The position numbers and the translations under genes were made by a program. The notes beneath the pieces are model-generated. The model did not search any database and was not told the origin of the DNA. It was given only the letters and a program-made list of their open reading frames with translations. DNA of 64,000 bases, taken from NCBI RefSeq assembly GCF_000182565.1, contig NW_015971549.1, positions 557,102-621,101 on the forward strand. The letters run 5' to 3'. The DNA is from Spizellomyces punctatus DAOM BR117. Its lineage: Eukaryota; Chytridiomycota; Chytridiomycetes; Spizellomycetales; Spizellomycetaceae. This document shows positions 4,475 to 35,952 of this stretch, one piece after another. How positions within the stretch are numbered: position 1 is the first letter of the stretch; the number at the start of each line of letters is the position of its first letter.

Positions 4475-4553
4475 TCCTGCGCATGGGCAGATATTTATAG
4501 ATATTGTATGTAATAGTTACATTTCAGAAAAAAAGAATCCGATTGAAATCATA

Positions 4554-4584
4554 GTGCGGAGCCGGTGGACTTTGGCACTAGTAC
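4554..4584 (+). repeat. left TIR of Fanzor element 1
   Basis: 31-bp terminal inverted repeat pairing with 6857-6887. Thirty of 31 positions match; the exception is position 29 (T here, C in the right TIR read in the same sense). The same left/right difference recurs in element 2. Confidence 0.95.
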
Positions 4585-4664
4585 AGTGATTGCAACCAAT
4601 TCAATCATAATTTTACTCGATTTAGGCACATGAACTATGGTTCGATATGGTTCGATGCAAACGA

Positions 4665-4804
4665 TGCTCCACCATTGAAAAACGGGTCCAATATGTGCGG
4701 CAATAAATGATTGAATATTCTGCAGTTGCCACACGGGTCCAATATGTGCGGCAATAAATGATTGAATATTCTGCAGTTGCTCCACCATTGAAAAACGGGT
4801 CCAA
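4665..4804 (+). repeat. direct repeat array in the Fanzor 1 leader
   Basis: Imperfect tandem units start at 4665, 4727 and 4778 (the last partial). A 47-nt core (4683-4729 and 4734-4780) is identical between the first two units. The block TGCTCCACCATTGAAAAAC opens units one and three but is shortened in unit two. Element 2 has no such array at the same place, so it arose after the copies diverged. It lies between the conserved 5' segment and the TATA box. Confidence 0.9.
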
Positions 4805-4825
4805 CGTGCGCAGTTGTCATATTTC

Positions 4826-4832
4826 TATATAA
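4826..4832 (+). promoter_or_regulatory. TATA-like box of Fanzor 1
   Basis: TATATAA 66 nt upstream of the ATG at 4898, followed by a 10-nt C run. Element 2 has TATATAAG at the matching place, which supports a promoter carried within the element. Confidence 0.5.
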
Positions 4833-4897
4833 CCCCCCCCCCATATCATTCTCTGCCCATTTCCCAGGCGTTCATCCATTTTTCTATTCCAATCATC

Positions 4898-6796
4898 ATG
4901 CCACCAAACAAGAAGCAAAAACTCGACAATCGACCTACCTGTCTGCATTCATGCAACAAGACTTCCTTTGCAAAGGCTTTCTTACCTAATGAGACCTACC
5001 GGCAGCGTCTTCTAGATTACATCGCCATCATCCATCAACTCGCCGACCATGCTTCCCACGCGCTGAAATTCTATCTCCTTTCAGCACCAACCTTTCCCAC
5101 GGTAAATGAAGATACAATCGAAGGCATCCTGTATCTTCTCAACAAGGGGGAGGCTTGGCATCCAAGAAAGGAAGCGAAGAAGGCATGGCGGGATAGTTTG
5201 CTGCCATACGTTCAACGGTACTGCCAAATCGTCGGCTTCGTTCATCCAAATCTACGAGGCGAGCAGCAGTCAATCAATTACCTGACAGCGAGTATGATGA
5301 CAAACCTGAAAGTCAACGTTCAAGAGCATTTTATGACGATGCTGCTCCGATATATCAATCTACGGCTGGACGTGAAGGGACGGAAAGGGCAATTTCCTCC
5401 AAAGAGTGAAGTGCGGAAAGCTTTCTTTGCTCGGCTACGCTACTTGAAGTCGATTTTCCTTTTTGATGTCGTGCCCGAGTCACTGGATGACTTGACTGCT
5501 GAAGAGAGTGAGCTTCTAGAAGAGATGTGGTCATTGGATCTCCCATTCCTTCCCAACAATCCCCTTGCCTACGCCATTGTTGCTGATCCGATGTCATTTT
5601 TTCCCGCGTACTGCAAACTCTCTGGGCTGTATGAACGATATGGCTTCCGACGGTTCAGTGCAATACCTCTGCGCCGCTCGCTCATTCAAAGTCACGTGCG
5701 AATCGACACCATCATCCTGTACCAGCATATCCTTTGCATCACACGTCCAGAAGCAGAAGCGGTCGAAAAGGATGATCTGTGGTTGCGGGTCTGTAATCTA
5801 TGTACCAAGGCTTTTCGGTCTCGCCGCGGTATGCAGTTTGAAGGCTCGATCACGACGGATGGTACCTCGGTGTCGGTTTACTTGAAACACCCTGATGCCG
5901 ACAAGTATGGAAGGCGCGGGGGTGGGAAAAAGTCAGCAAAAACGATGGAGGCGGAGGTTAAAGCGGTATATGTGGAGAACAACTTGCCTGCTTGTCGAGC
6001 AGCAGAGAACATTGTCGTTATCGACCCAAACAAGCGCGACATTCTCTACTGCCAAGACAGCAATGGTGCGACAATGTTTCGCTACACCGCCAATCAACGC
6101 TGCAGGGAGACTGGCAGCCGGCAATTTGCAAAGAGACGAGAAGCAATGAAGAAGGAAGCGGGAATTGACCTCATAGACTCACGAATACCATCCCCCAAGA
6201 CGATGAATCTCATGGACTTCATGCGTTACCTTCTCGTTCGCCGCGCTGATTGGGATCGTCGCAAGGAGTTCTACTCCCATCCTGCCCACACGCGGTGGAA
6301 GTGGCACTCTTTCATCAATCGGCAGCGAAGTGAATCGGACCTCATAAGCAACATGCGCGACAAGTTTGGGAACTTCACCGTTGTGATGGGTGATTGGAGC
6401 GATGCCGGCCGAACTGCAAAATTTCAGACCTCATCAAAGACAAAAGGCTGGCGCATTCTGTTCAGGCGCAATCGCATCAACTGCTTCCTGATTGATGAAC
6501 ACAAGACCTCATCTGTTTGCCCTCGCTGTTTGGCCTCATACAACGACTTCCTTGAAAAGGACTTCAAACAACGACCTCATTCAAGACCTTGGCGGCGACG
6601 AGAAGGCAAGGTTGAAGATGTCCATGGCTTGCTGGGTTGTACCAACCCTAACTGTTTGCAGCAAGACTGGACGACAATGCGCTACTGGAATCGAGATACG
6701 CTGGCAACGTGCAATATGCTGACAATCGTGCAATCAATGTTGGATGGGCACGGTAGACCAGAAAGGTTCAGCAGAAGCGTTCCAGCTATAGCGTAG
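4898..6796 (+). CDS. Fanzor RNA-guided endonuclease, copy 1
   Basis: Intronless ORF of 632 aa. Start is the ATG at 4898 followed by a lysine-rich NLS-like N-terminus (PPNKKQKLD); the frame is open further upstream but offers no ATG. Family: Fanzor, the eukaryotic TnpB relatives, which cut DNA guided by an RNA made from the 3' end of their own element. Seen here: a helical N-terminal part, then RuvC-I VVIDPNKRDILYC (D376), the region around VVMGDWSDAGRT, the Fanzor-type alternative glutamate in IDEHKTSSVCPRC (E534), a zinc finger C541/C544...C581/C586, and RuvC-III YWNRDTLATCNML (D600). All catalytic positions are present, so the enzyme looks active. About 85% identical to copy 2 overall but only about 61% over residues 162-262. 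The stop codon overlaps the predicted guide-RNA region. Confidence 0.93.
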   Translation: MPPNKKQKLDNRPTCLHSCNKTSFAKAFLPNETYRQRLLDYIAIIHQLADHASHALKFYLLSAPTFPTVNEDTIEGILYLLNKGEAWHPRKEAKKAWRDSLLPYVQRYCQIVGFVHPNLRGEQQSINYLTASMMTNLKVNVQEHFMTMLLRYINLRLDVKGRKGQFPPKSEVRKAFFARLRYLKSIFLFDVVPESLDDLTAEESELLEEMWSLDLPFLPNNPLAYAIVADPMSFFPAYCKLSGLYERYGFRRFSAIPLRRSLIQSHVRIDTIILYQHILCITRPEAEAVEKDDLWLRVCNLCTKAFRSRRGMQFEGSITTDGTSVSVYLKHPDADKYGRRGGGKKSAKTMEAEVKAVYVENNLPACRAAENIVVIDPNKRDILYCQDSNGATMFRYTANQRCRETGSRQFAKRREAMKKEAGIDLIDSRIPSPKTMNLMDFMRYLLVRRADWDRRKEFYSHPAHTRWKWHSFINRQRSESDLISNMRDKFGNFTVVMGDWSDAGRTAKFQTSSKTKGWRILFRRNRINCFLIDEHKTSSVCPRCLASYNDFLEKDFKQRPHSRPWRRREGKVEDVHGLLGCTNPNCLQQDWTTMRYWNRDTLATCNMLTIVQSMLDGHGRPERFSRSVPAIA

Positions 6797-6887
6797 CGTA
6801 GATTGGTTAGATTAGCTTATCCGAACCGGTTGTCGCCGGTTCATTCCCTGGTGCGGGTGCTAGTGCCAAAGTCCACCGGCTCCGCAC
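6794..6887 (+). ncRNA. predicted fRNA (omega-RNA) scaffold of Fanzor 1
   Basis: Segment from the stop codon to the right end, strongly conserved with copy 2. It contains a 7-bp hairpin at 6823-6842 (GAACCGG/CCGGTTC with a 6-nt loop). In copy 2 the 5' arm is GAGCTGG, which still pairs through two G-T wobbles. An A-box-like sequence starts at 6794 and a degraded B-box-like one at 6838, 44 nt apart as in tRNAs. By analogy with known Fanzor and TnpB systems the RNA would run on into host DNA from 6888, giving a guide starting near TAAGTAATAGG. 5' and 3' ends of the RNA are not determinable here; the 5' end may lie inside the coding region. Confidence 0.6.
6857..6887 (-). repeat. right TIR of Fanzor element 1
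   Basis: Inverted copy of 4554-4584 ending CTCCGCAC, followed by the TA duplication at 6888-6889. Confidence 0.95.
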
Positions 6888-6908
6888 TAAGTAATAGGGG
6901 GAGGTGTT

Positions 6909-7420
6909 CTAGTCAGCAACCCTTTCAAAATCTTCAAGGGAGTACTCCTCAGTGTTCGTCATACTAACCCAACGGGATTCCTCCGGTATATGAATCATCT
7001 TCACAATATCATCTGCAAACGTAACATTAAGTTGACACTTTGCAAATCTGTTTTTTCTCCCGGCTACACGTTGGAAGATTCTGTCAATGCGTCCTATGTA
7101 TTGGGTAGGTTGGAAGTAGTCCAAGGTAACATTCTGAGCTATGCGTTAGCAACTCAGACAGATGTACAAGCCCCTTTAAAACTGGAAAATACCTTGTTAG
7201 AGGGGTCTTGAAAACCCCTTGCCGAGATTTTGAAGAGTTCTCCCATGGGTTCGACGCAAAGGCCAATATAGCTCCCCTGATGCTCGTTTTGCTTTGGTTT
7301 AAATAGCAGATACATGGTCAACGTTTTGAAAGTAGCTGGCTGAGCCATTGTCTCAGGTGACGGCTGCAGGGCACCATTTTCATCAAGAGACATGCCCTGA
7401 AACGTAGTAGATAGCGACAT
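6909..7420 (-). CDS. small protein of unknown function (149 aa)
   Basis: Two exons, 7420-7193 and 7133-6909, with a 59-nt intron (GTATTT...GCTCAG); 76 + 75 codons including stop. The N-terminus reads MSLSTTFQGMSLDENG and the C-terminus ends LEDFERVAD. I recognise no domain; there is no signal peptide or membrane segment. Middle segments such as TMYLLFKPKQNEHQGSYIG and LNVTFADDIVKMIHIPEES look like a compact beta-rich fold. Its stop codon is only 21 bp from the right end of Fanzor element 1, so the element's flanking guide sequence runs antisense into its 3' end. Frame continuity and clean splice sites favour a real gene. Confidence 0.6.
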
Positions 7421-7791
7421 TCTGAGTTGGTTGAACCGAGCGGAGTTCTCTTAGCGATCTCACACGCTGATGACTGACGGTGACCAAGCTGTATAACTGA
7501 ACGCTCCGAACGACAATGGACACAGGCTATTGAAATATCGTCCAAGCAAACTGGAAGCAGTCAATAAACAGGCTTCCAGCCGATGTTGTACCTGACGCTG
7601 GCAGACTCTCAGTGTTCTGGCAGATCAACGTAAAGACATTTCGTCCGTTTCTGAAAGCCCCAATGTTCCTGTGGCTGGCACTTCCATTTAACCATTTATT
7701 CCTTTTCTCGTTGCCATGTCAACAATTTGCCAAACGCTTTGCAAGCAGTTCATTGAGCAGGATTGTTAACTACCTTTTGGACGAACAAGTC
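7421..7791. other. intergenic between divergent genes
   Basis: Shared upstream region of the small minus-strand gene and MRPS18. The part from 7671 on is the S18 leader that is duplicated at 4333-4474. An open frame continues upstream of the S18 ATG, so a longer N-terminus from an upstream ATG at 7664 is possible. Confidence 0.5.
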
Positions 7792-8723
7792 ATGATTGCC
7801 TTCACTATAGGCAAAACGGCCACTAGGTCAAGTTTTCATTTTCCCAAGCCGATTGGCCACTCGCCAATAACCCGGTCTTTTGCCAGGAAGCCTCGTCATG
7901 ACAACTCCCTTTGTAAGTTCCAGAAAATTGTAGCGGTTGAAACTTTATGAAATATACATGTGAGCTTACTCGTTACAGTGAACATTGTTGGACGAAGTGG
8001 TGTTGTCAAATACCTTGGTGAGTGAGAGCTCGTTAATGTGACATTGGCATCGTGCATTTTTGCTAACGTGGAGACTTAAAGAGTCACACAGAGAAAGCGA
8101 TAAGAAGCAGGACGTACAGTACGTTCCCCATCCCCAACGACGGTTTTTGCCAAATGAGGTACGAAACGAATCTTTTGGTCTAGTAGACTGGTAAGTGTGG
8201 CCAACTGAACTGACCTTTTATATCGCAACAGACCTATGTCCCCTCCGACTTGAACAATGAAAATATTGAAAAGTACATCAAAGACAAGCAAAAGCAAGCA
8301 CCGGAAGACGTTTGCGAAAAGTATGGAATAAATCCTTTGAAGGTGTATCGGGTACGTACCGTGTAGAATATTTTACCGTGTTTGTTGGATCATTCGTTTG
8401 ACTTGGGCTGCCGAATAGGATACGACGTTTCTATCGAGATTTTTAACGCGAATGGCATACATGAAGCCAAAAAGTCAGACAGGTATGGGCTTGGGTAGTC
8501 TCAAATCATAGCGACGGAGACAATATCTCAAATTTCTCTACCCAGGATTAAGCACGGCAAATCAACGAAAAATGACAAAGGCAATCAAACGCGCAAAGGC
8601 AATGGGTATGTCATTCACTTTAGTTCCATATAGTTAATGCAGCAGGCGAGATTGAAATGTTCATCTGTTCCAGGTCTTCTGCCTTTCACATATAATACTG
8701 TTGGATCACGAGCAGACTTTTAG
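7792..8723 (+). CDS. MRPS18: mitochondrial ribosomal protein bS18m
   Basis: Seven exons (7792-7912, 7979-8017, 8094-8158, 8232-8351, 8419-8482, 8546-8605, 8674-8723) sum to 519 nt, or 172 aa, in frame throughout. The C-terminal half carries the S18 signature: NPLKVYRDTTFLSRFLTRM, KPKSQTG, LSTANQRKMTKAIKRAKAMG and LLPF. The first 40 residues are rich in Arg, Ser and Lys with almost no acids, as expected of a mitochondrial presequence. Role: small-subunit protein of the mitochondrial ribosome. Exons 1-3 are less certain than 4-7; an in-frame upstream ATG could extend the N-terminus. Part of its leader and first exon is duplicated left of the Fanzor element. Confidence 0.87.
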
Positions 8724-9363
8724 AGGGCGGATTGTCCTTTTTATTTAATACATTGTAAATGCTTTGCGTGAACTTTGGTGCAATACTTTCTTTATCTTGT
8801 GTTCATTTCTCCTCCTCGTACGAAGGCATTGCCTATCCTATGGAAGTTCTACATGTATGGCCGCCGAAGGGCTGATGGCAAAAATCCCTTAGGATGTTCC
8901 TTTTGAATATTTGTTCTCCCATGAATTGTTCTATCTGCAGCCCTGATAGTATGCTACACATCCATATTCTGTGATGAACCGAAAGGAACTGTTTGCATTC
9001 ATAGTTGAAACTGTCCCATCCTATTGGGTCTTGCTACGTCGCCTCAGTATACAAGTAGCACTAAACAATGCATTGTTCTCCGTGATGGCACGCCCGCCGT
9101 CCCGAGAGCAAATCCTGTATCATAAAATCTTTGCATAGTGACAGCGCAGGGGCCTCTTGCCCTTTCCTCTTGCATTGACCGCGTAACCCGTATGACAACT
9201 GGTGACGTTCCATTGGCCTTCATTACGTAGCGCGTTCCGCAAAGATCTGAGCTCAGTATCCTTCAAGCCTCAAGCCAGTCTGCTATAAAAATGTACTGTA
9301 TTGCCCAGTTTGTCCCTTTTGATGTCAACACTTGTGTGTTAGATCGCACACATTGAGAACAGA
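8724..9363. other. intergenic, nothing recognised
   Basis: 640 bp between MRPS18 and the next plus-strand gene; no ORF with support. It should hold the S18 terminator and the next promoter. Confidence 0.5.
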
Positions 9364-11371
9364 ATGCCAAGCGCCAAACGTAAAACTGCAGACGCAGAAA
9401 TTGCTATCTCGACTTCCCCAGAGGACCCTGCGGAAAGCACAAACGCCAAACGCACCCGTCGTTCAACGAGGGCAGCAGCAGCAGCCGGAAAGGAGAAATT
9501 GGCTGCAATGACTGAAACAAAGGAAAAGACCAAGGCTAAAACCCCTCGTAAGAAGAAAGCAGACGAGGAAGAGACGAGTCCAACTAGTCCGACAAAGAGA
9601 ACAAGAAAGAGAAAACAGGATCATATGGGAGGTGATGATGGGAGTGCACCGACAAGTCCTACGAGCCCCAAAGGGAGAACAACCAAAAAGCCCAAAGAAG
9701 AAGAATCCGGAACGGCAGACAGTGGCAAGAAAGACACACAGAATGGAAATGGAGAGGCGAAACATGAGGGTGAGATGAAAGAAGAGCAGGAGAGCAGCAC
9801 GGGGAAGGGCGGTGTTAAAATGGGAAGCCCACAGAAGAAGGATTTGCAAAGCCCTAAAAGTGAGGCGCCAAAGAGCCCAACAAAGGAGAACGTTAAGAGC
9901 CCCAAAAAGGAAGTACCAGAGAGCTCAAAGGAGGAGGAGTTGAAAAGCCCTAAAAGAGAGACGCCAAAGAGCCCAACAAAGGAGAGCGTCAAGAGCCCGA
10001 AAAAAGAGGCACCGGAGAGTCCAGTCAAGAAGGAGAGCGCCGAGACGGGCAGCGCACTTGGAGACTTGGTACCCCCGCCTCCTGGTAAAGGTAATCTAAA
10101 ATCTGATCCCTACTCCTCTCATGATGCCACATACCAATCATCCAAGCATTCCAAAACACTCTTCCAGGCGTCCTAGAGAAAGGTCACATCTTCTTTTTCT
10201 ACAGGCCCAAGGTGGAAAAGTCGGAAGCAAAAGGCCTTGACGACGTCCAACGGTTCTACATTGTCCTCAAACCCGATGTATACCAATTTAAATCTGAAGA
10301 TGACAAGGAATCCCATGTTTACCACGGCCATCGAATCCGGGAAATCATTGTGACTCGCAAAAAACTGCCAGAGATTGGTAGTCGGGCTCGATATTGGGGA
10401 TTTGTTGACCACGTTGTGGATGATGTGAAAGATTTGGAGCAGTACCTTCGAGGGGAGACTTATGAAACGAAGACGAGAGGTTAGTGGGGTTTTCCGCTCA
10501 TTGTTGTGAAAGCTGGAAAAGGCTGACAGGTATGCCCAAGGTACCCGGCATCTCGAACCTGCGCGACCTTGTGGTAAGATAGATTGGCGTGTAGAATAAA
10601 TTCCTCTCTCCCGTATAATGACTTTTCTTGACTTTACTGTCGATAGGTGAAGGGGTATATTCAATTGTGGATCATAACGGTCATACCCATTTAGCCTATG
10701 TATTAACACTGCCAGAGGAACCAAGTAAGTCAGATGTCACGGTTTAGACTGGTACCTTGGACTTCCCTAACGTACTACAGCTGAGGTACAAAAGACCTTC
10801 AACATTGAAAAGGAGGGATCTTTCATCTTGTCGATCAAAGTAAGCAAAGAATCTCCATCAAATGCACAATGACTTCCATGATACGATATTGACGTATAAC
10901 GAATTAGAATCCGGAAACACCCTCTCCACCCTGGGCCGGCCTCGGAGAGCGCCAAAAGTCGAACCTACCACCCAAATTCCTCGAACTCTTCCGGGGCCGT
11001 AGATTCATACCCGCCAACCCGCCTGCACTTCTCGATTTCGATCATGTTGAAATTCTGCTGATTGGTGCTGCGGAAGATGTATCCGAGGATCTTGGGCAAG
11101 CTGGGAAAGGTTTGTTTGTGAACTACCGTTACAATATTTTGCAAGACAATGAGGTCTCACGGTTTTACCTTGCAGAACTTGAAGAAATGGAAGAGGAGGA
11201 ACACAAGGATGTAGTGAAGCTACAGGACGACAAAGTCTTTCAAGAGTACGTACCAAACACTTTAAAACTAATTCTTTCTTGTGACGTCTCTGATTATCTT
11301 TTCTCATGCACAGCCTCCAATTGGACAAGACGAAATTCAAGACAGAGCCATTATTTGGAAAGTGGGCTTAG
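9364..11371 (+). CDS. nuclear protein of the fungal 'BTB transcription factor-like' family
   Basis: Exons 9364-10090, 10168-10479, 10530-10573, 10647-10724, 10781-10839, 10908-11109, 11176-11245 and 11314-11371. The first 240 residues are a basic, low-complexity tail with repeated SPKK/KSPTKE motifs, typical of DNA-associated nuclear proteins. The conserved part follows: EKGHIFFFYRPKVE, DDVQRFYIVLKPD, RYWGFVDHV, GEGVYSIV, HLAYVLTLP, GSFILSIKNPE, FRGRRFIPANPP and VEILLIG. I know this motif set from fungal proteins labelled 'BTB domain transcription factor', although no BTB fold is apparent; function is unknown. The exon 3 to exon 4 junction leaves the frame off by one with the splice sites I can see, so that boundary needs transcript support. 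Ends KTEPLFGKWA. Confidence 0.75.
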
Positions 11372-11924
11372 GTTGCGCTATTGATTCATATACCTATCCT
11401 GTCTTCCCATGCATAATTACACGAATCACACATTGTTCTGGTACACTTAATTTTTGGACATTTCAAATTGAAGCGATATTATTGTGGAAGGGAACTGTTG
11501 ATTATCCATGTACAGTTTCCGTCCAAATCCAAAGTTAATACGCATATCTGCTGTCTGCGCTACGAACCAACGAGTAGGGAAATTGTGGAGCAGGCGAGTG
11601 AGGTGATACAAAATGATCTCGCAAGGTCAAGCTCGTTGAGTTCGGTAGCCCATTCGTAAATCTTGTATTGATGCAAGAGCTGGGAACCATTCCCTCATAT
11701 ATATAAAGGATTATGAATGTTCCTTTTCAGTGACAGGGCTGACATAACGCTCTACGGTCATCAAGAGAAAACCAAATCACGGTACTCTGTGATTTCAAAG
11801 ATAATCTTCTGATGTACTAAAGATGACAGACGGCCCCAAGTGTCTCCAGCTATGCAGATACCATCCGTAACAAGATTTGGCGGGTCGAATCAACAAAAAA
11901 CATTTTCTTCTCCGTAACCCAAGT
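11372..11924. other. intergenic, nothing recognised
   Basis: 553 bp downstream of the nuclear-protein gene and 3' of the tRNA; no supported feature. Confidence 0.5.
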
Positions 11925-12005
11925 GCACGCTGTGAGATTCGAACTCACGCCTCTTTCGAGACTGGAACTTGAGACCAGCTCCTTAGACCGCTCGGACAAG
12001 CGTGC
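11925..12005 (-). tRNA. tRNA-Leu (CAA)
   Basis: On the minus strand an 81-nt cloverleaf: acceptor GCACGCT pairs with AGCGTGC, the D-arm contains GTCCGAGCGGTCTAAGGA, and the anticodon loop CTCAAGT gives CAA. A class II variable arm (TCTCGAAAGAGG region) marks it as Leu/Ser type, and the T-arm is GTGAG-TTCGAAT-CTCAC. No intron, although tRNA-Leu(CAA) often has one in fungi. It lies between two convergent protein genes. Confidence 0.93.
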
Positions 12006-12157
12006 TTGTTAAGATTGCAGGTCATATATATTTTCTCTCCATATCACCACTGATCCCATATTGTGCAATTTCTTGTACAAAGAAGAATGGTGACATGAAC
12101 AGCTGTTATCTTGTAGAACCCACCAAACATATATCAATGTAATGTCGTGTTACTCAT

Positions 12158-14048
12158 TTACAGAATTGGCCCTTCCATTGGCCCTTCCCCATTGAATCCC
12201 ATTGCAGTCTGCATATCCTCGTCCCCCTGCTTCCTTGTCTGGCAATGTGATCTCTCTTCACCCTGTATCTCTTCTCCCAATATCACTGTCTTTTGACCCG
12301 GTTGTTCCTCTATCGGCAGAACAGGACTGAGCGCAACTCCCGTTCCTTCCAGTTGGGCAGATAGAGGGCTTCGAGGTAATTGATCCCCTTCTGAATCCTT
12401 ATGATCCAACTTATTTCCTTCCAGCGGCCAGAGTTCTTCCAAAAGCGGGCGCTTCCGGACAGGAGTAGGTGGCGGTTTATCAGCAAGGGCACTTGCTCCA
12501 GTTTCGGACTTGCGTCGCACTGTATGATGATGTACCACACCCGGATCTCCACCTTGTCCACATACTCTAATTTCCTTGAACCACGCATCCTCTTCCACCT
12601 CCGCCAGCGAGCATCTTTTCCCCGGATCTCGTTCCAATAATCTTTGTATTATCCCTTTCATGTGATCTGGCAGTCCTACGATGGCAGGGTGATTTGGGGG
12701 AAACCCTTCTTCGGTTTTAACTGGATGGGCACCCTCTGCCAGCCACCCATCCATTTTCTCATATCCCCAGAACATCAAAAGAAATAGAACTCCACAAGAA
12801 TACACGTCGAGCTTTTCCGGGCTGGAAGGATTCGGAGATATCGGTGATGCACCGGACGAAGTGGCTTCTGGAGCGGACCACAAGTCGGTGACACCGAATG
12901 ATGTCAGCATGTGTATAACATTTTGAGTGTCGGCCGCGGATCCAAAATCGGAGAGTTTTAGCGTTCCATCGGATGTGAACAGGACGTTGCCTAACGATGT
13001 GCACAGCGATGGAGAAGCAGGTTAGAGACAGACCACCCAAGGCGCGTGCAGACACTGCAACCACCGCACATTACCAGGTTTTATATCGCGATGCACAATG
13101 TGGTGAGAGTGCAAGTACAAGATTACGCGAATGAGTTTCTTAAAGTTGCATTGAAGTTCTGCGAGGGGCATTGCACCTTGAAAGAGAAATCGTCATGACA
13201 GACCGCATGCGACCATTCCCAAGTGAAGCGTACCGACGGAAGAAATCATAATGTCTTCAAGACTTCCCCCCGTAGCAAACTCCATTACCGCGTATATTCG
13301 TTTGTTACCGTCAATTGTTTCAAGAGCCTAGTAGCATATAGTCATGAGACATCAATCATTCTAATAGCATAACAGGTGCATTTAGTCTCCTCGTACCTTT
13401 ACCACATTGATGTGGTCCGACACCTTGGTCATTGTCGATATTTCCCTTTCAACTCGCGCTTTGAACTGATACTTTGTCTCGTTCTTTCTCTTTTCGTGGA
13501 CTTTAACTGCAACCACAGATCCATTTGCCATTTGTGCTTTGACAACTCGTGAGAACCCTCCCTGACCCAGTATCTCGGCGCTGCTGCTTTTTACTTGTCG
13601 CTTAAGGTCTTTATCACTGAGCGTCGCCAAGAGAGTCAAAGAAGGCAGCGATTTGTTGCGTGCTTGTCTCGGAGAACCTTCCATATCCTTGAGGTCCGCG
13701 AGACCATCGTTCTGGGACTTTGCACCAAAAGTCTTCCCTACCGTGCTGGTTTTGTACAGCGTCCCACTCGCTGCTCTTGATAGAGTTTTCCCAGCCTTGG
13801 ATATCGTTCCACCCGCTTTTTTCGAAACCTTTCCTCCAACATCTTTAACACCACCGTAGAACTCGTCAAACTGTGCACATTGAAGTGATACACGAATATA
13901 GTTGGAGGGAGATATACAAAAAGGATTTTCAGTTCGCGGGGAGTGAATCCTGACCAGATATTTGTCGCCAAGCGAGGTTGGACAGTAATGTTACCTTTTC
14001 TTTAAGGTCCAAGTCCTTCAGCCGTCCACGGAGCTTGTCAAAGGACAT
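12158..14048 (-). CDS. serine/threonine protein kinase
   Basis: Five exons (14048-13995, 13870-13397, 13327-13234, 13176-13075, 12990-12158) give 518 aa in frame. After an N-terminal Lys/Gly/Ser-rich region the kinase domain begins with the glycine loop LGQGGFSRVVKA, then VVAVKVHEK (catalytic Lys), YAVMEFATGGSLEDIM (hinge), HRDIKPGNVLF (catalytic loop), LKLSDFGSA (DFG), WSAPEA (APE) and DVYSCGVLFLLMFWG. All key residues are present, so it should be active. The C-terminal 150 residues are Pro/Glu-rich and unconserved. Subfamily and substrate cannot be told from the sequence. The start ATG at 14048 is followed by an 18-codon exon. Confidence 0.88.
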
Positions 14049-14552
14049 GGTGGTCCTCGAAATACGGACAAAGGGGCTCCAAGTCCAGACATAGTGGGTT
14101 GATGCTAAAGATAGAGTTGTGAGTTCGCTAGGGGCCACGCGTGTTTCTTACGGGTTCATCTGAGGGTTCATCGCGTCTTGCATTTTCACAACTGTGCCAC
14201 TCATTGGACCACGTGATAGAATTGGTAAGCAAACAAGTTTCTGCCTCGACGGTATAGAGCTTCTACCATGGTTAAAGTGGATAAATATTGAATGACATCC
14301 CCTTGATGGTTGTCAGCAGAACAAGTACTGATATTATCAAAATATGCACTCTCTACTACAACAACCCGCAGATCGTGCTTTGCCTTGATATACCAGGATA
14401 CCCTACTTATCGATCCTGGATATCCCTCCCTTACTCAAAGGCCGTAGTCCCCCTTCCTCTCGCTAACTAAAAAAAAATGTCACGTATCGTACTACTTTGG
14501 CCAGTCGTCTTTAAACTCGATTGTGAAGAACAGATTCGGTTTATCTCTCAGT
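14049..14552. other. intergenic, nothing recognised
   Basis: About 500 bp containing the kinase promoter and the 3' flank of the next minus-strand gene; only a 60-codon unsupported frame. Confidence 0.5.
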
Positions 14553-19968: not shown

Positions 19969-20055
19969 GCAGCCAACAGCCGAGATAGAGATTGTTATTA
20001 GCCGTTAGAGTCCGGAGAAATTGAACAGTGCTGCATAGTTGCGCTATTTACGGCA

Positions 20056-26273: not shown

Positions 26274-29200
26274 ATGCAGTTGCTAACGTCCAACTATGAT
26301 GATTTACTTCTTGGATATCAAGTTGAAGAGAGAGGAAAGGACGAAGGTGTTGGAGGATATTCCCCCGCTCACGAAGGGGAATGGGCGCCGGGTTGCTGGG
26401 AACTGTTTATCAAGGATGGGGAGAGCACGGAATGGGTTGACCATGCCAATCAGGATTTTGCCTTTCGACATGACGATGATGTGCTGTGGGACCTGACAGA
26501 AGACGAAGCGATATGCTTCCGGGATCGCGGAGCGGAAGGCGAGTTATCTTCAGTTGATGGGCACTTAAGTGAGCTTTGGGATGACGACTTTGCTGAAGTA
26601 ACACACGAGAGCTGTGTTGAAATGGATATAATTTGGGAAGGGAACGAGTTTTTGGATCATGAGAGCGAAGCGGAGAGTTCTCACCAGAATCAGGCGGTTT
26701 CATGTGATGAAGATGTGCTGGATACTACAGAACAAAAACATGACCATGGCGGTTCTACAATCCGTGCTAATACACTCTCCAGCAATATGGTACATTACAG
26801 TCCAGACGCACATGCCGAATGGTTCAGCGAAGATGGCTTGGAAGACACCGCAGAAAATGATAGCTGGGCGCCGCCCTCATTGAGTCGAGAGCATGATCAA
26901 ATCCAGTTCCGCTCTGAAGATGATGATATGCTGTTTACATACGAAGCGGACAGCAACAGCAGTTCTTTGAAATTCGAGCTATCGGTGGACAGCGATGTTT
27001 GGGCAGATGATCGATTATCGTACAAGGACGAGACGCTTGTACCGGATATATTAGGACTCACGGCAGGAAAGGAAATGGAAATGGATATAGATCCTCTGAT
27101 TTCCAGCCAATTGGAGAAGGACAAAAAGTTATCAAAGATCCCATTCGAAATCGTTCTAGTTGGAGATCCATGTATGGACCAGTTAGAGGTTGGGTCGCTC
27201 TGGAAAGCAACGGCACGTAGCCGGTGAGAATCAACCGATGAAGTGGTCTGCCCGTTCTGGTGCTGTAATAGTGCTAATTGCTTGATAGAGAGTGGATGCT
27301 GGAGCAAGTAGATGCCGTACTCAGTCGCATCCGACAAGCGCCCGAAACTGGAAAACAACATGTTCTCAAGATGATCTCTCGTAGTCAAAAAGTTTGGAAG
27401 TACGAGTCGACATTTTGTGAGGAAACAAGGAGTTCTGGAAATGGTCCTAAAGTCTGGAATGCAGGTATGACGATCAGATCCCAGTCATGAGACTGCAAAC
27501 AAAAAGGCACGTCTACAAAATGATTCCAGATGGGAATGGGCGCTTCGGTAAGTTCGACACTCTGAATGCTCTCAAATTTGAGAAGTAAAGGTTGAGGACT
27601 ATCATCGTATAAGACATATATGTGCGCATTCTGGAGTACTGTAAAGATCTCTTGCAAAAGAATGTAACTGCGACAAAAAGAGAGATATACTATCGTGATG
27701 TCGCTTTGTTCAAGAGTCAACGGGTTGTAGATCAGGTAATGGGATTGTGATGCATGTGATTATGCGAAGACGTGTGACAAACCTCTCAGATTGGTAGGCA
27801 ATCGAAGATCTTGCATGTACCTTCGCAGTTCAAAGGCATTGCCTCAATATGGTAAGGTTAAACTGTGGTCATCGTTGTACACTGACTCGCACGCAAGCAT
27901 CAACTTGAAATTTTTCAGGTTGCCTCGTCCAAAGGTCTGGTGCATGGGGACTTGCGCTTACATATGGTAGACAGAACTATAGTAGATTGTCTTCAAGGGG
28001 GCCATCAGGTAGGGTGATATTCTGATTAGTTCTGACCTTCAACTTTGACGACCATTGTCCCTTTGATAGGGAATTCTTATTCCTACGTCTGAACAAATAT
28101 CTCATATCCTTACAAACAAGGCTCTTTTTTTGTTCTTGATTATTTGTCCACTACTTGTTAAGTCCTTAACTAGTTGATCCATGGCTCTACATTTGGAAAC
28201 AGCAGCCAAGTTTGTGCTGGTGATCGAAAAGGAGGCAACATTCCGCACAGTCGTTGCTGACCGATTTGCTGCCATACATGGTCCATGTATCTTGATAACG
28301 GTATGAGCCACGGACGCACCGTGCACTGTGTCAACCACGATGTTACTTAGGATCGTTGTGAATAGGGGAAAGGATATCCTGACGTATCAACACGAAGACT
28401 TGTCAAAAGATTATCTGAAATTGAACGTACACATATCAAGACGCCGAATCTCGATGATGGCAATTTACCGAAGCCATGGGAACGGGACACGATCATGGAC
28501 GCACACCAGTTCGATCATTCTCGTCCGAATAGGCCGGATCTTGTTGACTTTCATGACCCTGATTCTCTGAACATCGAATTTCGAGTCGAACAGGGTGCAA
28601 CGGACCTGTTAGAAATGGAGGGCGAGAGGCCGGCGGTTATCAATGATCCATTGGAGGAGCCATATATAATTGGTGCATCTGCGGATTCGATCGTCAACAA
28701 TGATGTCGACTTGGAGACTGAAACTGAATTGGTAGAGCTGGCCGCTGCAGAACAACCTGGAGATTCAGTGAAAATCGAGACGTTTGATGTTTCTGACAGT
28801 CCAGAACGTGCACAGGTGGAGGATGGACCGGTCGAACGCCTTCCGGTTTTGGCACTTGTAGATTGCGATCCCCATGGAATTGAAATTTACTTGTGCTATA
28901 AGTTCGGCTCTAAGGTATGGAATTGGTGACAGGGGTTTTCAAAGAAATCATACACTATTGGTAGTTTGAAATCATACCAAATCGCGCAGGCAATGGCATT
29001 CGACTCTCATAATCTCGCCTGCCCTACCATCCGCTGGATCGGTCTCCGCCCAAGAGACTGGATCAACACCGACTACCAGATCGATTTTAACAAACTGCTC
29101 GTTTTGACGGAACGGGATCGGCGTCGAGCTTTGGGAATGCTAAGAAGAGGTTACATCAAACAATTTTCAGATATACGGTATAGTGCATCGCTGCTTAGAT

Positions 29201-29358
29201 GCCGTCAAAATGAGTTTGCTTTGATTTTTTTTGGACATTTTAGTACTGCCTTATCTCGCATACTATTTTATGGCCGCAAAGCCGAGATACAGGCGGTACC
29301 CCCGGATATACTCACAGGAACCTATTTGCCGAGAATTGTGGCAGAACAAATTAATTGA
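26274..29358 (+). CDS. SPO11: SPO11, meiotic double-strand-break transesterase, extended
   Basis: Topoisomerase VI-A homologue that cuts DNA to start meiotic recombination. Exons mapped: 26274-27223, 27289-27464, 27485-27547, 27614-27735, 27798-27851, 27919-28008, one from 28070, one containing FVLVIEKEATFRTVV (about 28209-28302), one ending 28914, then 28990-29177 and 29244-29358. Catalytic tyrosine motif: TATKREIYYRDVALF. Then ASSKGLVHGDLRLHM, the Toprim glutamate in VIEKEATF, GKGYPDVSTRRLVKRL, the Toprim LVDCDPHGIEIYLCYKFGSK, AMAFDSHNL and the C-terminal RKAEIQAV. Odd: about 317 acidic residues (Asp/Glu/Ser/Trp-rich, no known domain) precede the core, and about 120 extra acidic residues sit inside the Toprim region between SEIERT and VLALVDCDPHG. 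The junction after 28070 is unresolved. The first exon could be a separate gene, but its end splices in frame. Confidence 0.85.
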
Positions 29359-32300
29359 AGCATGGACCTAATATCTAGTTACTTTTTGTTAACTAAGGAA
29401 GATCACTATGACAATACGTAATTAGAATAATAAATGGTGTAGGATATTTAATTAGATGTCACCAATAATCCTAGGATTTTTTCCCGGGCGGATTTCCTTC
29501 TGATACTTTGGCCAAACTACTGATGGACAAGTTGGCCAAACAGGACCCAGACATTTACAGCATCGGCACGACGCAGGGTAGGTCACCAAGGACTAGATTT
29601 GCTTCGATGAGAATTGCGCATATGGCCCCAAGAATCAAAGTTTGACCGCCTCAGACTTGGAACTAGCAGTATGCTGTTGGCCACAAGTCGAAAGCTTGCA
29701 TTTTGCGCGCATTATGCACGATAATCACATCATCCAAGTCCTTGTGCTACCTACACGAACTCTTGATTCGCTGTCCAAGGGAGGATGTTTGCAGCCTGTT
29801 GGCTGCTGACAGATCATGATCTTTTAGAGGCGTCGGTTATCTACGCATCTTGGCTTATAAGCCGTGTCAACGTAGTTGATGCGCCCGAAGAGGATGAAAT
29901 CGGTAGCATTGTATGAAATTTCGGATCCTTGGACTTTTCACCTAACCCCGAATGGATGCTTACAATATAAATCATGGCTCTTCTGTCATTGTTCCACAAA
30001 GTGAGCGTTGCCTTGTAGGCGATATCGCGTAAGCTGCTGACTGGAAGAACCACTGAGAATACAGTGTCTGAATAGGATTTCAAAGGGAGTTTGGTTTGCT
30101 ATCATTTTCTCATTTTCATCCTTTTCATCCTTTATCACAGGCCCTTCCCCCGAAGAGGATGCCATCATCACCCGAAGGCTCCGGCGAGTCGTTGCTCCTT
30201 CCATTTCTGGCGCGCGCAAACGATCAGTCCCAGGCGCCCACCTCAAAGAGGTTATCACGTTGCATTACTACAACGGCCTTTAAAGTTATCCGGTATACTT
30301 TTGGACCGAGTACCCATGGCTGGAGCGAGTTTTATGCCATCCCGAGGCGGAAGGAAAGATGAAGAGAGAGTGGGGGGATGTGGGAGAGGGTGCCTTTTTA
30401 TAACCCTGGGGGACTGCGCTTTTTTTTTGCATTCGGAATTCTCGGCGGAAGATAACGTTATCCTGCGTACGTCATTCTTCTGAGCACGCCATGAAGGCCC
30501 AATCATCGTCGTCGTTTCCACCTCCTGGCAGACCTCCTGGCGTGCGTTCATTCCCCTTGCACACGGCGCGCGAGTCAAGATTATGTAAACGCGTGAAGCG
30601 AGTCATTTGTTTATCTTGATTTTCCCACGGTCCTTGCCAAACGAGATGAAGACGAATATCGTATGCACAGACAGCACAAGATGTCAAGTACTTGTTCTGC
30701 CCAAGGATAGGATAGTCTACTGCAAGGTCGGGTGTGCAAGTCACTCATAGACAAAGACTCCTATGCGTTTCATCGGCGTCTTCAGGTGGGATCTGAGGGG
30801 AACTCCAACTTGTACGTAACTGTGAGTACATACATCTCTACATGATATGCACTGACGAATTGATGTCGCATTGTATTTGGTTATGTATATCGACCATCCA
30901 GTCGACATCCTTTCAGGTTAGATATGGAATATCTAGATACGACGGTTGTCATATATCGTCACTGTCCATTGTCCCACCCAAAAACAACCCGACATCTCTG
31001 CAATTCAAAGAAGGTCAAATGATACCAGCGCAGTCCGTCTTCATCACTGACATATAATAATCCGATGAAAGGTCGACACGAATCATCCTGTAAATTCACT
31101 CCCTCCATCCGTTTCGGACAATTCCCTGACTGGGGCGCAAGTGATTCATATTCCAGAAATATTTGCATTAACTCTTCAGTCGGGACCTCCATTATCGTCA
31201 GGACGATTCCAGGGAAGTTCTCGGTGTTGCACAGTGTTGACACACAGTATGTCGTCGAGACGGATCTGGGAGACTGATTCGACGAATCTGTCATTGTCCG
31301 GGCAGTGACTGGTGTGACTGGTGGGGTTTCCAGATCGACGTAACCGAGTCAGCTCGAAGAGCATTGAGACTGTTGCCTGCAATAATGACGGCGGGTGACG
31401 TTCGCAAGTTGCTCAAAAGCTCAATAGGGGGGCAGGCTCCTTCTGCTTCGTTATAGGCGTATGGTGGCTCGCATTTCGAGCGAGGAGGGATGGAATCATC
31501 TTCAATGACGTTCTATTGCGCGGCTCTTTCCGGTGACGGATGTAGACCAGTGGCACAACTCTATGAGCACCATTTACAAGATGATGATAGCTGCACCCAA
31601 GTAGATTCCTCCAGCTCCTTCTTGAGAAATTGTAGTCCTGCGACCTTGAGACTTCCCAAAATCTTTGGAATCTTCCGGAGCTGCTATTCCGCCAGAGCTA
31701 AAGTGTCGGATGTAAACATTTTCTGATTATGGGAGCTTGGGAGCCAGAGATATCCGCTATCAAGGAAGTTTGGAGCTTGCCCTTCCACAACAATAAAAAA
31801 GTGTCGTCGTCACGTTATTCAGATGCGGAACAAAGTTGGCGAGCATGGAGAAGGATCGTTTCTCCTAGTAAGCGATCTTTGGGAGAAAGCGAACAAAGCA
31901 AGCACAATTGAGGATGTTCTTTGGGAATGGGTCAAAGTGCCCTAGATGAGCCAGCCTGTAGTGGAAGATTAACAACACGCAGATACGGTTAGCATACGCC
32001 TGGTGTAGTAGGAGCATCTAAGAAAAAGGTCGTGGAGCGAGTCAGCATTCTTTGTCAGATGCTTATGATAAGCCATATCACAGACCAGATATGTAACTCT
32101 ATGTGCCCGCACTCTTTTGGTGTTGAGCACCGGTTTCGCCTCAACCGTCAACCTACCCATCAATATGCCTTCGCAAAGTTCGATGGCCATGTATGTTTCC
32201 GAACAACGTACGCGAACGTAAGAAACATCGCTGCTGTGTACTTTGACATGATTGGATAACTTCGCTCCCGTCGAGCCTCATCAGTGACGGTTTGGCATTC

Positions 32301-33815
32301 GAGAAGCATTTTTGAGACGACTGCGTCGTAGCCAAATTTGGGCTCAACTTGGGATAGTCCGGCCTGCATTTTTTGGTAGTTGGTACATCAGGTCGGTAAG
32401 CAAACCTGACCATTCCCAGGACTGGTGAGGAGACTTTTGCTGAGCAGTTTAATTTCTGCCTTGGATTCACTAAACTTTATATCATTTTGTGGTGTCTCTA
32501 ATGTCCAACAAGTCTGCGAGGGCTGGTCGATCCCTGGAACTGACCTCGCCATCTGAACAGAATTTCTATACGAGTGCGAAAATAATCTGCCAGCAAAGCT
32601 GGCGTTCCGCACTCCGTGACATGAGCATCAAAACCCGAAGGTTTCTCATTGCTCAGCGGCTCCGTATCAAAGACCAGCTGGTCGACGTTTCTGTCCGTGA
32701 CGGGAACATTCCGCCCTGCCTACAGTACTAGCTACTAGTACTACCCCTATTAGTACGAAGATCAGTCGTTTATAACGCATACGGCGACGGTTTACCACTG
32801 TCGGAACGCGCATTGGACTTCCCGTACCTTTTCTGCTCCTGATCGGAAGTAAACCCAATATGACGTTTTCTTCTGGATATTAATTGTTTATGAAGGAACA
32901 GACATGTATCTCATGCTGAATGTAGTGTCCTCGATGTTGACATGTCTATCTGCCTGACAGGGACCTCCACATTCATTCACCATAGCTGAGAGCAATGTGA
33001 AAGCGAAGATACGTCGTTGGCAGGTCTATTTGGTATTGTGGCGGTTCACAGTATTGCAATTGCAGCAAATCCGGTCTTCTTCATTTTGCCTTTTTCTCCT
33101 TTCGCATATGGCTGCAAGCATGCTACACAGAGAGGTGATGCTTTGTTATATAATGGATATAATGGAAGATTTCACTTGACGAGGACGAGTGGATGGAACA
33201 ACTTGGCGGTGTGCCACGGCACTCCTACTGATACCGCAAATTCGGGTTCCTTCCACATACTTGGATTTGGTCTACTTTCTAATAATGTCTGATTCATTAG
33301 ATAATTAAAGCTGTTATGGGAGACAGAATTACATACAGTATCAAACCACTTTTTACCACTGGGGCAGATTTAACGGACGACATCTACGCCAAAAAAAAAA
33401 AGCATGCGCAGATGCATTACCTCTTGGCGCAACAAGCCCACCAGAACAAGACTTGATTGTTCTCCAAACATGCTCGCTCCTGACTAAAGTCACAAGTTAG
33501 CAGATTCGCTACCCTACTTCTCCGGTAAACTCCCTTCATCTTTTTTTAAAAGCAAAAATTCATTTGTTGGTATTCTTCTTCTAGGAGCGTGGAAATGCTT
33601 AGGCTTTCCGTAGCATTTTCTACATCATTGCCGCCATTACCTGTGCCGGTCTATTGGCATCCCTATTCTTCAAGCACATTCCTTTAAAGTAGAAATACAT
33701 GGGCTGATGACGAAGGTTAAATGCAGAATACAATAATAGGGTAGTGCTGCAACTAAGAGTCCATGTGATATTCAAACATGAACTATGGTGGTCTTCTGTT
33801 AAACGTTTATATCTA
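29359..33815. other. gene-poor region left of Fanzor element 2 (4.5 kb)
   Basis: No gene I can defend. Open stretches with coding-like character lie at about 29490-29590 (plus; GGFPSDTLAKLLMDKLAKQD) and 29900-30260 (minus; possibly two exons around DEKDENEKMIANQTPFEI and DIAYKATLTLWNNDRRAM). They lack a convincing start and any domain and may be relics. Remaining frames are under 115 codons, mostly without ATG starts. Confidence 0.4.
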
Positions 33816-33846
33816 GTGCGGAGCCGATGGGTATTGGCACTAGCAC
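33816..33846 (+). repeat. 3' TIR of Fanzor element 2
   Basis: 31-bp inverted repeat pairing with 35922-35952. Its internal sequence (GATGGGTATTGG) differs from element 1 (GGTGGACTTTGG) at four positions, all shared with the other end of this element. Confidence 0.95.
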
Positions 33847-33909
33847 CCGCACCAGGAATTGAACCGGCGACAACCAGCTCGGATAAGCTAATCTAACCAA
33901 TCTACGCTA
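33816..33909 (-). ncRNA. predicted fRNA (omega-RNA) scaffold of Fanzor 2
   Basis: Counterpart of the segment in element 1. The hairpin lies at 33861-33880 (GAGCTGG pairs with CCGGTTC through two wobbles, loop TTGTCG). The A-box-like TAGCGTAGATTGG starts at 33909 and overlaps the stop codon. The B-box-like GGTTCAATTCC (33865-33855) fits the Pol III consensus exactly. The guide would begin in host DNA beyond 33816 on the minus strand (TAGATATAAACG...). Transcript ends are not determinable here. Confidence 0.6.
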
Positions 33910-35791
33910 CGGCTGGAACACCCCTGCTGAACACCTCTGGTCTACCGTGCCCATCCAACATTGATTGCACGATTGTCAGCATATTACAGGTTGCCAGCGT
34001 ATCTCGGTTCCAGTAGCGCATCGTCCAGGCTTGCTGACAGTTAGGGTTGGTACAACCCAGCAATCCATGGACTTTTTCAATCTTGCCTTCGCGACGGCGC
34101 CAAGGTCTTGAATGAGGTCGTGTTTTGAAGTCCTTTTCAAGGAAGTCATCAGATGAGGCCAAACAGCGAGGGCAGACAGATGAGGTCTTGTACTCGTCGA
34201 GAAGGAAGCAGTTGATCCTGTTCCGCTTAAAGAGGGTGCGCCAACCTTTCGTCTTTGATGAGGTCTGAAATCTCGCAGTTCGACCGGCGTCGCTCCAATC
34301 ACCCATCACAATGGTGAAGTTTTCGCCGTACTTGTTGCGCATGTTGGATATGAGGTCTGATTCGCTCTTCTGACGGTTTATGAATGCGTGCCATTTCCAT
34401 CGAGTATGAGCAGGGTGGGAGTAGAACTCCTTTCGACGATCCCAATCAGCGCGGCGAACGAGAAGGTAACGCATGAAGTCTATGAGGTTCATCGTCTTGT
34501 GGCTTGGGATACGTGATTCTATGAGGTCAATACCGCCAGCTTTCATCCGCTGCCGTTCTTTTGCAAATCGACGGCTTCCAGTCTCCATGCAGCGTTGATT
34601 GGCGGTGTAACGGAAGATGGTGCCCTTGTTGTCTTGGCAGTAGAGAATGTCGCGCTTGTTTGGATCGATAACGACAATGTTCTCTTGACAAGCAGATAAG
34701 TTGTTTTCCACATACAGCGCCTTCACCTCAGCTGCTAGAGCCTTTGCTGACTTTCTCGCTCCGCGCTTTCCGTACTTGTCAGCTTCTGGGTGCTTTAGGT
34801 ATACAGACACCGAGGTTCCGTCTGTCGTGATCGAGCCTTCAAAATGCATACCACAGCGAGACCGAAAAGCTTTGGTACGTAGATTACAGACGCGCAACCA
34901 TAAATCGACCTTCTCTACGGCTTCTGCTTCTTGGCGGGTGATGCAGAGGATGTGGGCGTAGAGAATGACCGTGTCGATGCGAATATGGCTTTGGATGAGA
35001 GAGCGGCGCAGAGGTATCGCGCTGAACTGTTGAAAACCTTGCTGCTCGAACAACTTTGACAGTCGGCAGTATGCAGGAAAGAAGGACATCGCGTCGATGG
35101 CAATGAGGTAGGCAAGCGGCTTGTCTTGATCAGGAAATGGCAGGTTAAGTGTCCAGATCTCTTCTAAAATCTCGTTTTCAAGAATGCTCAAGTCATCCAG
35201 TGATTCTGGCATAGTTTCGAAAAGGAAAACCGACTTCAAGTAGTGTAGCTGAGTAAAGAAAGCTTGCCGCGCATCGCTTTTCAGTGGCAGTCGCTGCTTC
35301 TGTCCCTTCACGTCGAGCCGCAGATTGATATACCGAAGGAGCATCTGCATGAAATGCTCTTGAACGTTGACTTTCAGGTTCGTCATCATACTCGCTGTCA
35401 GGTAATTGACTGATTGCTGCTCGCCTCGTAGATTTGGGTGAACAAAGCCGACGATTTGGCAGTACCGTTGAACATATGGCAGCAAACAATCCCGCCATGC
35501 CTTCTTTGCTTCCTTTCTTGGATGCCAAGCCTCTCCTTTGTTGAGAAGATAGAGAATTGCTTCGATTGTATCTTCATTTACCGTGGGAAAGGTTGGTGCA
35601 GATAGGATGTAGAATTTGAGAGCGTGGGAAGCGTGGTCAGCGAGTTGATGGATGATGGCGATGTAATCTAGAAGACGCTGCCGGTAGGTCTCGTTTGGCA
35701 AGAAAGCTTTTGCAAAGGAAGTCTTGTTGCAGGTATGTAAGCAAGTAGGTTTGTCGAGTTTTTCAAGCTTTTGCTTTTTCTTTGGCGGCAT
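33902..35791 (-). CDS. Fanzor RNA-guided endonuclease, copy 2
   Basis: Intronless ORF, 629 aa, from the ATG at 35791. The N-terminus PPKKKQKLEKLDKP is a stronger SV40-like NLS than in copy 1. Same domain order: helical N-terminal half, RuvC-I VVIDPNKRDILYC (D376, same number as copy 1), VVMGDWSDAGRT-type region (IVMGDWSDAGRT here), LDEYKTSSVCPRC carrying the alternative catalytic glutamate, a zinc finger closed by CTNPNC, and RuvC-III YWNRDTLATCNML. Small indels relative to copy 1 (GARKSAK, ENFTIV, QQAWT) all keep frame. No stop or frameshift, so it is presumably functional. Length and motif spacing agree with the Spizellomyces Fanzor1 as I remember it; whether this or copy 1 is the studied protein cannot be decided here. 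Confidence 0.93.
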   Translation of the reverse strand: MPPKKKQKLEKLDKPTCLHTCNKTSFAKAFLPNETYRQRLLDYIAIIHQLADHASHALKFYILSAPTFPTVNEDTIEAILYLLNKGEAWHPRKEAKKAWRDCLLPYVQRYCQIVGFVHPNLRGEQQSVNYLTASMMTNLKVNVQEHFMQMLLRYINLRLDVKGQKQRLPLKSDARQAFFTQLHYLKSVFLFETMPESLDDLSILENEILEEIWTLNLPFPDQDKPLAYLIAIDAMSFFPAYCRLSKLFEQQGFQQFSAIPLRRSLIQSHIRIDTVILYAHILCITRQEAEAVEKVDLWLRVCNLRTKAFRSRCGMHFEGSITTDGTSVSVYLKHPEADKYGKRGARKSAKALAAEVKALYVENNLSACQENIVVIDPNKRDILYCQDNKGTIFRYTANQRCMETGSRRFAKERQRMKAGGIDLIESRIPSHKTMNLIDFMRYLLVRRADWDRRKEFYSHPAHTRWKWHAFINRQKSESDLISNMRNKYGENFTIVMGDWSDAGRTARFQTSSKTKGWRTLFKRNRINCFLLDEYKTSSVCPRCLASSDDFLEKDFKTRPHSRPWRRREGKIEKVHGLLGCTNPNCQQAWTMRYWNRDTLATCNMLTIVQSMLDGHGRPEVFSRGVPAVA

Positions 35792-35841
35792 GATGATATC
35801 TGTGGGAAAAGATGAAAGCCTGGGAAAATGGGCACGACAAC

Positions 35842-35848
35842 TTATATA
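35842..35848 (-). promoter_or_regulatory. TATA-like box of Fanzor 2
   Basis: TATATAAG on the minus strand about 51 nt upstream of the ATG at 35791, matching the position of the box in element 1. Upstream of it both elements share a block with AATCATAATTTTACTCGATT near the 5' end. Confidence 0.5.
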
Positions 35849-35921
35849 GGATTTTTTGGATCAAACCATAGTTCATGAGTCTAAATCGAGTAAAATTATG
35901 ATTAAATTGGTTGGAATCTAT

Positions 35922-35952
35922 GTACTAGTGCCAATACCCATCGGCTCCGCAC
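35922..35952 (-). repeat. 5' TIR of Fanzor element 2
   Basis: 31-bp TIR at the promoter side of element 2. Read 5'->3' on the minus strand it begins GTGCGGAGCCGATGGGTATT and ends TAGTAC, whereas the 3' TIR ends TAGCAC. Confidence 0.95.

Follow-up and report, generated by a model that had tools for sequence, protein, structure and literature searches.

What keeps a transposon in place in a eukaryotic genome when it encodes an RNA-guided nuclease and no transposase, and why should such an element be preceded by a fixed four-base motif at one of its ends only? These questions are raised by a 64,000-nucleotide stretch of the chytrid Spizellomyces punctatus DAOM BR117 (contig NW_015971549.1, positions 557,102 to 621,101; hereafter, the window), which carries two copies of the Fanzor element SPu-1: unit 1, on the plus strand at 4554-6887, and unit 2, on the minus strand at 33816-35952. 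S. punctatus is the genome from which Fanzor was first described, and SPu-1 is the type family and the first shown to cut DNA. The 2013 description (Bao and Jurka, PMC3627910) lists 17 full-length copies with 33-bp terminal inverted repeats (TIRs) and putative TA duplications, and the open text of the 2023 study (Saito et al., PMC10432273) gives 42 Fanzor (Fz) loci, 19 of them full length, together with 134 gene-less ‘ghosts’.

The protein of the solved structure PDB 8gkh (SpuFz1) is encoded, at 637/637 identical residues, at G000:C17:213846-215756 (contig 17) of the same 24.0-Mb genome, and the two window units are therefore SPu-1 elements. Units 1 and 2 are already known in kind (from 2013 and 2023) and almost certainly in place too, as further copies that the 19 published full-length loci presumably include. 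By themselves they add little; the genome, in which one left end is combined with two RNA modules and two left-flank motifs and which holds one transposase candidate, provides a natural comparison. The Discussion of PMC10432273 calls the host role of Fanzor unknown, and states that no transposase flanked by SPu-1 inverted repeats was found.

Left-end motifs of SPu-1 elements and ghosts

By experiment, the target-adjacent motif (TAM) of SpuFz1 is CATA, and cutting requires all four of its bases (PMC10432273); the open text of the same paper also places CA before the SPu-1 left end, and describes an omegaRNA consisting of a 75-nt scaffold plus a guide of 14-15 nt. CATA stands at the left end of both window units, at 4550..4553 (plus strand) in unit 1, where the TA of CATA is the putative target-site duplication, and at 35953..35956 (minus strand) in unit 2. 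Among the SPu-1 ends compared, CA precedes the flanking TA at 26 of 29 left ends versus 4 of 33 right ends, read at the mirror position (Fisher p = 5.5e-10), against a background of 7.6% among the 6109 TA sites of the window; the three left ends without CA all read TA, which a C-to-T change would produce. The 29 include a solitary left end beside locus L004, and omit L040 (too diverged) and L052 (a look-alike). Because the TIRs of the window units are identical over 28 bp at both ends, the TIR alone cannot show a transposase which end is left and which is right. Fanzor does have a reason for a one-sided CATA, since the empty site would carry this motif as its TAM.

The gene-less ghosts have one type of left TIR and two types of right end. 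The first right end is of the SPu-1 omegaRNA type (102 genome matches), while the second (23 genome matches) is the one that follows a second Fanzor gene on contig 7 at a distance of ~200 bp. This second Fanzor (L001, G000:C7:73105-76332, and L080) is a divergent Fanzor1 with DPG and DE motifs, in which two in-frame TGA codons fall in a likely GT-AG intron; its closest named relative is from Borealophlyctis nickersoniae (51% identity). Two second-type ghosts (of 17) were compared: over their final 174-193 bp they are 96-98% identical to the 3' end of the second Fanzor locus, and over their initial ~230-245 bp they are 81-83% identical to a first-type ghost. The left ends of the two types are almost identical; the right TIR of each type has 24 positions identical to the left TIR, and the two right TIRs agree with each other at 22/28.

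Among the matches listed for a CA-containing left-end pattern, CATA precedes 60 of 65 first-type ghosts (the others read TATA three times, CAAA once and AACA once) and none of 10 second-type ghosts (one CAGA), with 25 left ends unpaired. As such a pattern could itself favor CA, the pairing was repeated on 76 exact ghost left TIRs sampled without regard to flank, again among the matches listed (100 of 244). In this sample CA is present in 39 of the 42 readable first-type left flanks (the remaining three read TA, and two more are unreadable) and in 0/11 second-type flanks, all 11 of which read CT, AT or TT (p = 4.8e-9 versus the first type). Twenty second-type ghosts were fetched, of which L074, L075 and L077, whose left ends are missing or unreadable, were omitted; T precedes the TA in 16 of the other 17, against a background of 23.5%. 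In these pairings, the ghost left flank follows the omegaRNA module, as expected if recutting by Fanzor retains copies.

The published Ghost Spu-1 elements (Saito et al. 2023) resemble the first type described here in their left TIR, the CA before it and their SPu-1-type omegaRNA right end. Whereas the open text of that paper describes one ghost type, with CA, we find a further group of at least 20 in which T stands ahead of the left TA and the right end is that of the other Fanzor. New relative to the open papers are the contrast between left and right flanks, this additional ghost type with its TTA flank, and the candidate transposase presented below; the ghost type, its flank and the candidate may be contained in the supplementary files that lie outside that scope.

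Proposed retention by recutting and its rivals

The anatomy and family of the units, the retained active-site, TAM-contact and zinc residues of their proteins, the predicted omegaRNA fold, selection on the protein, the left-only CATA and the association of flank with RNA module are established in this analysis. We propose, with a probability of roughly 0.6, that SPu-1 is a non-autonomous TIR transposon that is moved in trans and retained through the recutting of empty sites by Fanzor. A transposase acting in trans would move the element to TA sites; excision of a copy would leave an empty site, CATA followed by the guide sequence, which would be a perfect target for that copy's own Fanzor-omegaRNA; the complex would then cut this site, and the copy would be restored by repair using a sister chromosome or homolog that still carries the element. 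Copies at CATA would thereby be kept and others lost, which would give rise both to the oriented CATA and to its replacement by TTA in ghosts that acquired the second Fanzor's right end.

Retention by recutting has been proposed for TnpB (PMC11870625) and in the Discussion of PMC10432273. In the proposal for TnpB of IS200/IS605 (PMC11870625), the guide of the nuclease serves as a record of where the element inserted, and the nuclease keeps the element from being lost, as is proposed for Fanzor. IS200/IS605 is a single-strand HUH element, whereas SPu-1 is a TIR element with flanking TA; a further difference is that the SPu-1 left motif reaches beyond the putative duplication. The pattern of flanks suggests that Fanzor's own recognition motif decides where SPu-1-type elements persist.

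Several observations weigh against this account. An earlier, sequence-only reading of the window had reported a TA duplication; TA does flank both ends of both units (4552-4553 and 6888-6889 outside unit 1, 33814-33815 and 35953-35954 outside unit 2), but the duplication itself is only consistent with these ends, no empty site having been seen. Among the 76 listed ghost left ends, 21 are without an assigned right end (17 with CA, one CT, two AT and one AA), and one of the 17 second-type ghosts is without the T (CAGAG). The second Fanzor itself has a probable left flank of CATA, not TTA, although this is a single case: its probable left end, at L080:479, is marked by a weak TIR (18/30, with a runner-up stretch at 17/30) and is preceded by CACA. 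As plain support for a TTA-type TAM, the second Fanzor is weakened by this flank.

The left-flank motif could instead reflect the target preference of the transposase itself, exerted through subterminal DNA with insertion in one direction, beside CA for SPu-1 and first-type ghosts or beside T for second-type ghosts, perhaps by two transposases, the TAM having evolved to fit. The TAM of IS200/IS605 elements coincides with the target of their transposase; moreover, the right TIR, and not the omegaRNA alone, distinguishes the two ghost types, and a bias toward A/T beside the TA, judged by eye, is found at right ends too, so some target preference exists. This explanation has to contend, however, with the 28 bp that are identical at both unit ends, with two ghost types that have the same left TIR and different left flanks, and with a motif that equals the measured SpuFz1 TAM, in which all four bases are needed for cutting; we consider it unlikely, if a serious contender. 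Fanzor might also act at insertion, where a TAM-bound Fanzor-omegaRNA would help the transposase to choose or orient its target. The scarcity of motif-less relics, and the three exceptions that read TA, look as if nearly all insertions began at CATA. Yet the guide is flanking DNA, and would thus have no match to a new target before insertion, and we know of no target-choosing complex of Fanzor or TnpB with a transposase, which makes this possibility improbable.

Finally, the units might be relics or copies used by the host, whose nuclease is no longer active in the life cycle of the element. No transposase lies inside them, and many copies are broken, CpG decay being responsible in several. 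On the other hand, 14 of the 71 genome stretches that match the SPu-1 Fanzor are near full length without stops, with ratios of nonsynonymous to synonymous substitution (dN/dS) of 0.11-0.23, unit 2 has a 98.2% identical sister copy, and omegaRNA was found from four Fz loci in culture, according to the open text of PMC10432273. We regard a relic status as very improbable indeed.

A second Fanzor and a candidate transposase

Extended to the second ghost type, retention by recutting leads to a broader reading, in which the survival of an insertion depends on Fanzor and its RNA rather than on the transposase, Fanzor acts in a eukaryote as an RNA-guided retention or drive device that also serves gene-less elements in trans, the second Fanzor uses a TTA-type TAM, and an IS630-like element on contig 3 is the missing transposase or its descendant. 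Taken jointly, these claims are tentative, and we would put them slightly short of an even chance. That Fanzor1 enzymes include users of a TTA-type TAM, of the kind predicted for the second Fanzor, is seen from GtFz1 of Guillardia theta (TAM TTAA; PMC11423790, PMC10432273); the open text of PMC11423790 prints the TAMs of SpuFz1 and GtFz1 the other way round. A PDB search at E up to 1 returned no sequence match between the second Fanzor and GtFz1. At the SpuFz1 TAM contacts, the second Fanzor has Q for R96, V for Q129, T for Q130 and S for N133, and two contacts fall in gaps of what is a weak alignment.

One of the two genome matches to PF13358 is a 385-aa open reading frame (ORF) on contig 3 that contains a DDE_3 domain (PF13358, 1.4e-12) plus helix-turn-helix domains, with an acidic triad counted by eye as DD44E. 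Its relatives at 40-70% identity come from environmental data and from chytrids, including Phlyctochytrium arcticum and Clydaea vesicula. The gene is full length at one place in the genome, with three further partial matches, and lies in an IS630-like element present as a lone copy (about C3:531540-534565; L055 539-3568). The ends of this element match the ghost left TIR at 21/28 positions, the second-type right TIR at 22/28 and the SPu-1 TIR at 18-19/28, agreements that were reached by 0-1 of 100,000 shuffles and that mark the ends as related, not identical. On either side, the element appears to be flanked by TTA rather than by plain TA. Among the matches listed, it has a first-type ghost on each side, at distances of 657 and 168 bp. 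IS630-Tc1-mariner elements have flanking TA, like SPu-1, and the contig-3 candidate carries the DDE_3 domain; it differs from them in its DD44E triad and TTA-like flank. Judged by its domains and ends, the element is a good candidate for the transposase source of SPu-1 and the ghosts, and is the least certain part of the explanation.

The window units and the SPu-1 family

The sequence-only reading had described two intact Fanzor units with 31-bp TIRs and a single intronless ORF each, and its coordinates proved exact. Unit 1 (2334 bp) has its left TIR at 4554..4584 (plus strand), an intact 632-aa Fanzor1 ORF at 4898..6796 (plus) and its right TIR at 6857..6887 (minus); unit 2 (2137 bp) has its left TIR at 35922..35952 (minus), an intact 629-aa Fanzor1 ORF at 33902..35791 (minus) and its right TIR at 33816..33846 (plus). 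Within each unit, the left and right ends inside the TA agree at 30/31 positions over 31 bp, with 28 bp identical. There is exactly one ATG-to-stop ORF of at least 200 aa per unit, the Fanzor1, and at that size no transposase inside either unit. Both have the features of SPu-1 elements (~2.1 kb, a single ORF, TIRs, TA flanks and CA before the left end), and the likeness to SPu-1 and SpuFz1 extends to ORFs of 629-632 aa within ~2.1-2.3 kb, to TA-flanked TIRs and to an omegaRNA scaffold that spans the right end; unlike this, the studied protein is only 87% and 88% identical to theirs. The type family, the transposase-less nature of the units and the CATA at both left ends, the TAM of SpuFz1, had been missed.

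The Fanzor assignment, for which a protein search had been suggested, was borne out by matches to PDB 8gkh of 1246 bits for unit 1 (residues 2-632) and 1245 bits for unit 2 (residues 2-629), with identity at 545/627 (87%) and 550/625 (88%) aligned residues, respectively. On these scores, and with 71 matching genome stretches, a chance match to Fanzor1 is excluded. Neither window protein reached the cut-off in a Pfam search, which included the PF07282 zinc-ribbon, and the assignment therefore rests on the solved relative. The single PF07282 match in the genome is the second Fanzor, and SpuFz1 itself is equally missed; the miss is a matter of model sensitivity, not of a defining Fanzor1 feature. 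Aligned with SpuFz1, both proteins conserve D383, N385, E541, D606 and five cysteines after residue 540, and thus keep the RuvC triad (D383/E541/D606) and the C4 zinc finger that had been noted, as well as all TAM-contact residues (R96, Q129, Q130, N133, R291 and Y345); the roles of these residues are those given in the open text of PMC10432273.

Using the 75-nt scaffold length of the published SPu-1 omegaRNA (open text of PMC10432273), scaffolds including the right TIR and TA are predicted at 6815..6889 (plus) in unit 1 and 33814..33888 (minus) in unit 2, followed by predicted guides that are flanking DNA: AGTAATAGGGGGAGG at 6890..6904 (plus) and GATATAAACGTTTAA at 33799..33813 (minus). The 90-nt folds with guide (z-scores of -2.73 and -3.18) share the two-stem layout of the published omegaRNA, with an 8-nt loop on stem 2, in keeping with the earlier suggestion of an RNA from the 3' end. 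As the paralog SpuFz1, 87-88% identical, is a proven RNA-guided nuclease (PMC10432273), and the TAM contacts are kept, it is plausible by analogy that the window copies function likewise. A whole-genome search with one combined degenerate pattern for the predicted guide targets returned 20 places, 12 with one mismatch and one without mismatch, the latter fitting neither guide. CATA followed by the first 14 nt of AGTAATAGGGGGAGG or GATATAAACGTTTAA is absent elsewhere in the genome, an exclusion that covers perfect 18-base targets only; this absence is what cutting or filling of such sites would produce, though chance alone would also give zero.

Many of the 71 stretches that match the SPu-1 Fanzor are fragments of one copy. 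Over the 14 near-full-length copies (91 pairs) the median dN/dS is 0.15, from which we conclude that purifying selection is acting on the protein. The sequence-only reading had called both insertions recent, which holds for the lineage of unit 2 (the 98.2% identical sister lies on another contig) and not for unit 1, whose closest intact relative is 86.9% identical (~13% apart). With so distant a relative and so low a dN/dS, the intact frame of unit 1 is better explained by family-wide purifying selection than by youth. A recent duplication within the window was rejected, since neither unit is the closest relative of the other. Matching TIR variants within units 1 and 2 had also suggested that the two TIRs of a copy evolve in concert, an idea that was likewise rejected, as several copies have unlike ends (L007, L020, L025, L030 and L034).

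The eight broken copies compared comprise four that are CpG-poor (observed/expected 0.27-0.54; L019, L021, L023 and L025) and four that are CpG-normal (0.86-1.02); the window ORFs are CpG-normal (1.00 in unit 1, 0.97 in unit 2). In L019, C-to-T or G-to-A changes at CpG account for 58 of the 68 differences that separate it from its closest intact copy, which suggests inactivation driven by methylation or by a process like repeat-induced point mutation. Two duplicated relics of an SPu-1 relative (L028 and L031, G000:C9), 58-60% identical to the unit 2 protein, partly keep the omegaRNA scaffold and have no recognizable TIR. At L004, 74 bp separate the solitary SPu-1 left end (1336-1410) from a full copy's right end.

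An inner palindrome, TAGTGC...GCACTA, is present in every TIR (window 4552-4581 and others), with a shorter form kept in the ghost left TIR. The unit 1 leader is longer than that of unit 2 owing to a repeat region at 4694..4807 in the 5' part of this plus-strand unit, where three copies of ATATTGGACCCGTTTT (at most two mismatches) start at 4694, 4745 and 4807 on the minus strand. The same sequence is repeated in the leaders of eight of the other SPu-1 loci compared, in a single orientation relative to the gene, and occurs three times, inverted, before the second Fanzor (L080 639-699). An Argonaute gene of at least two exons (ArgoL2, Mid and Piwi) lies at 60635-62401 of the window, 25 kb from unit 2, so that RNA silencing is encoded beside the transposons.

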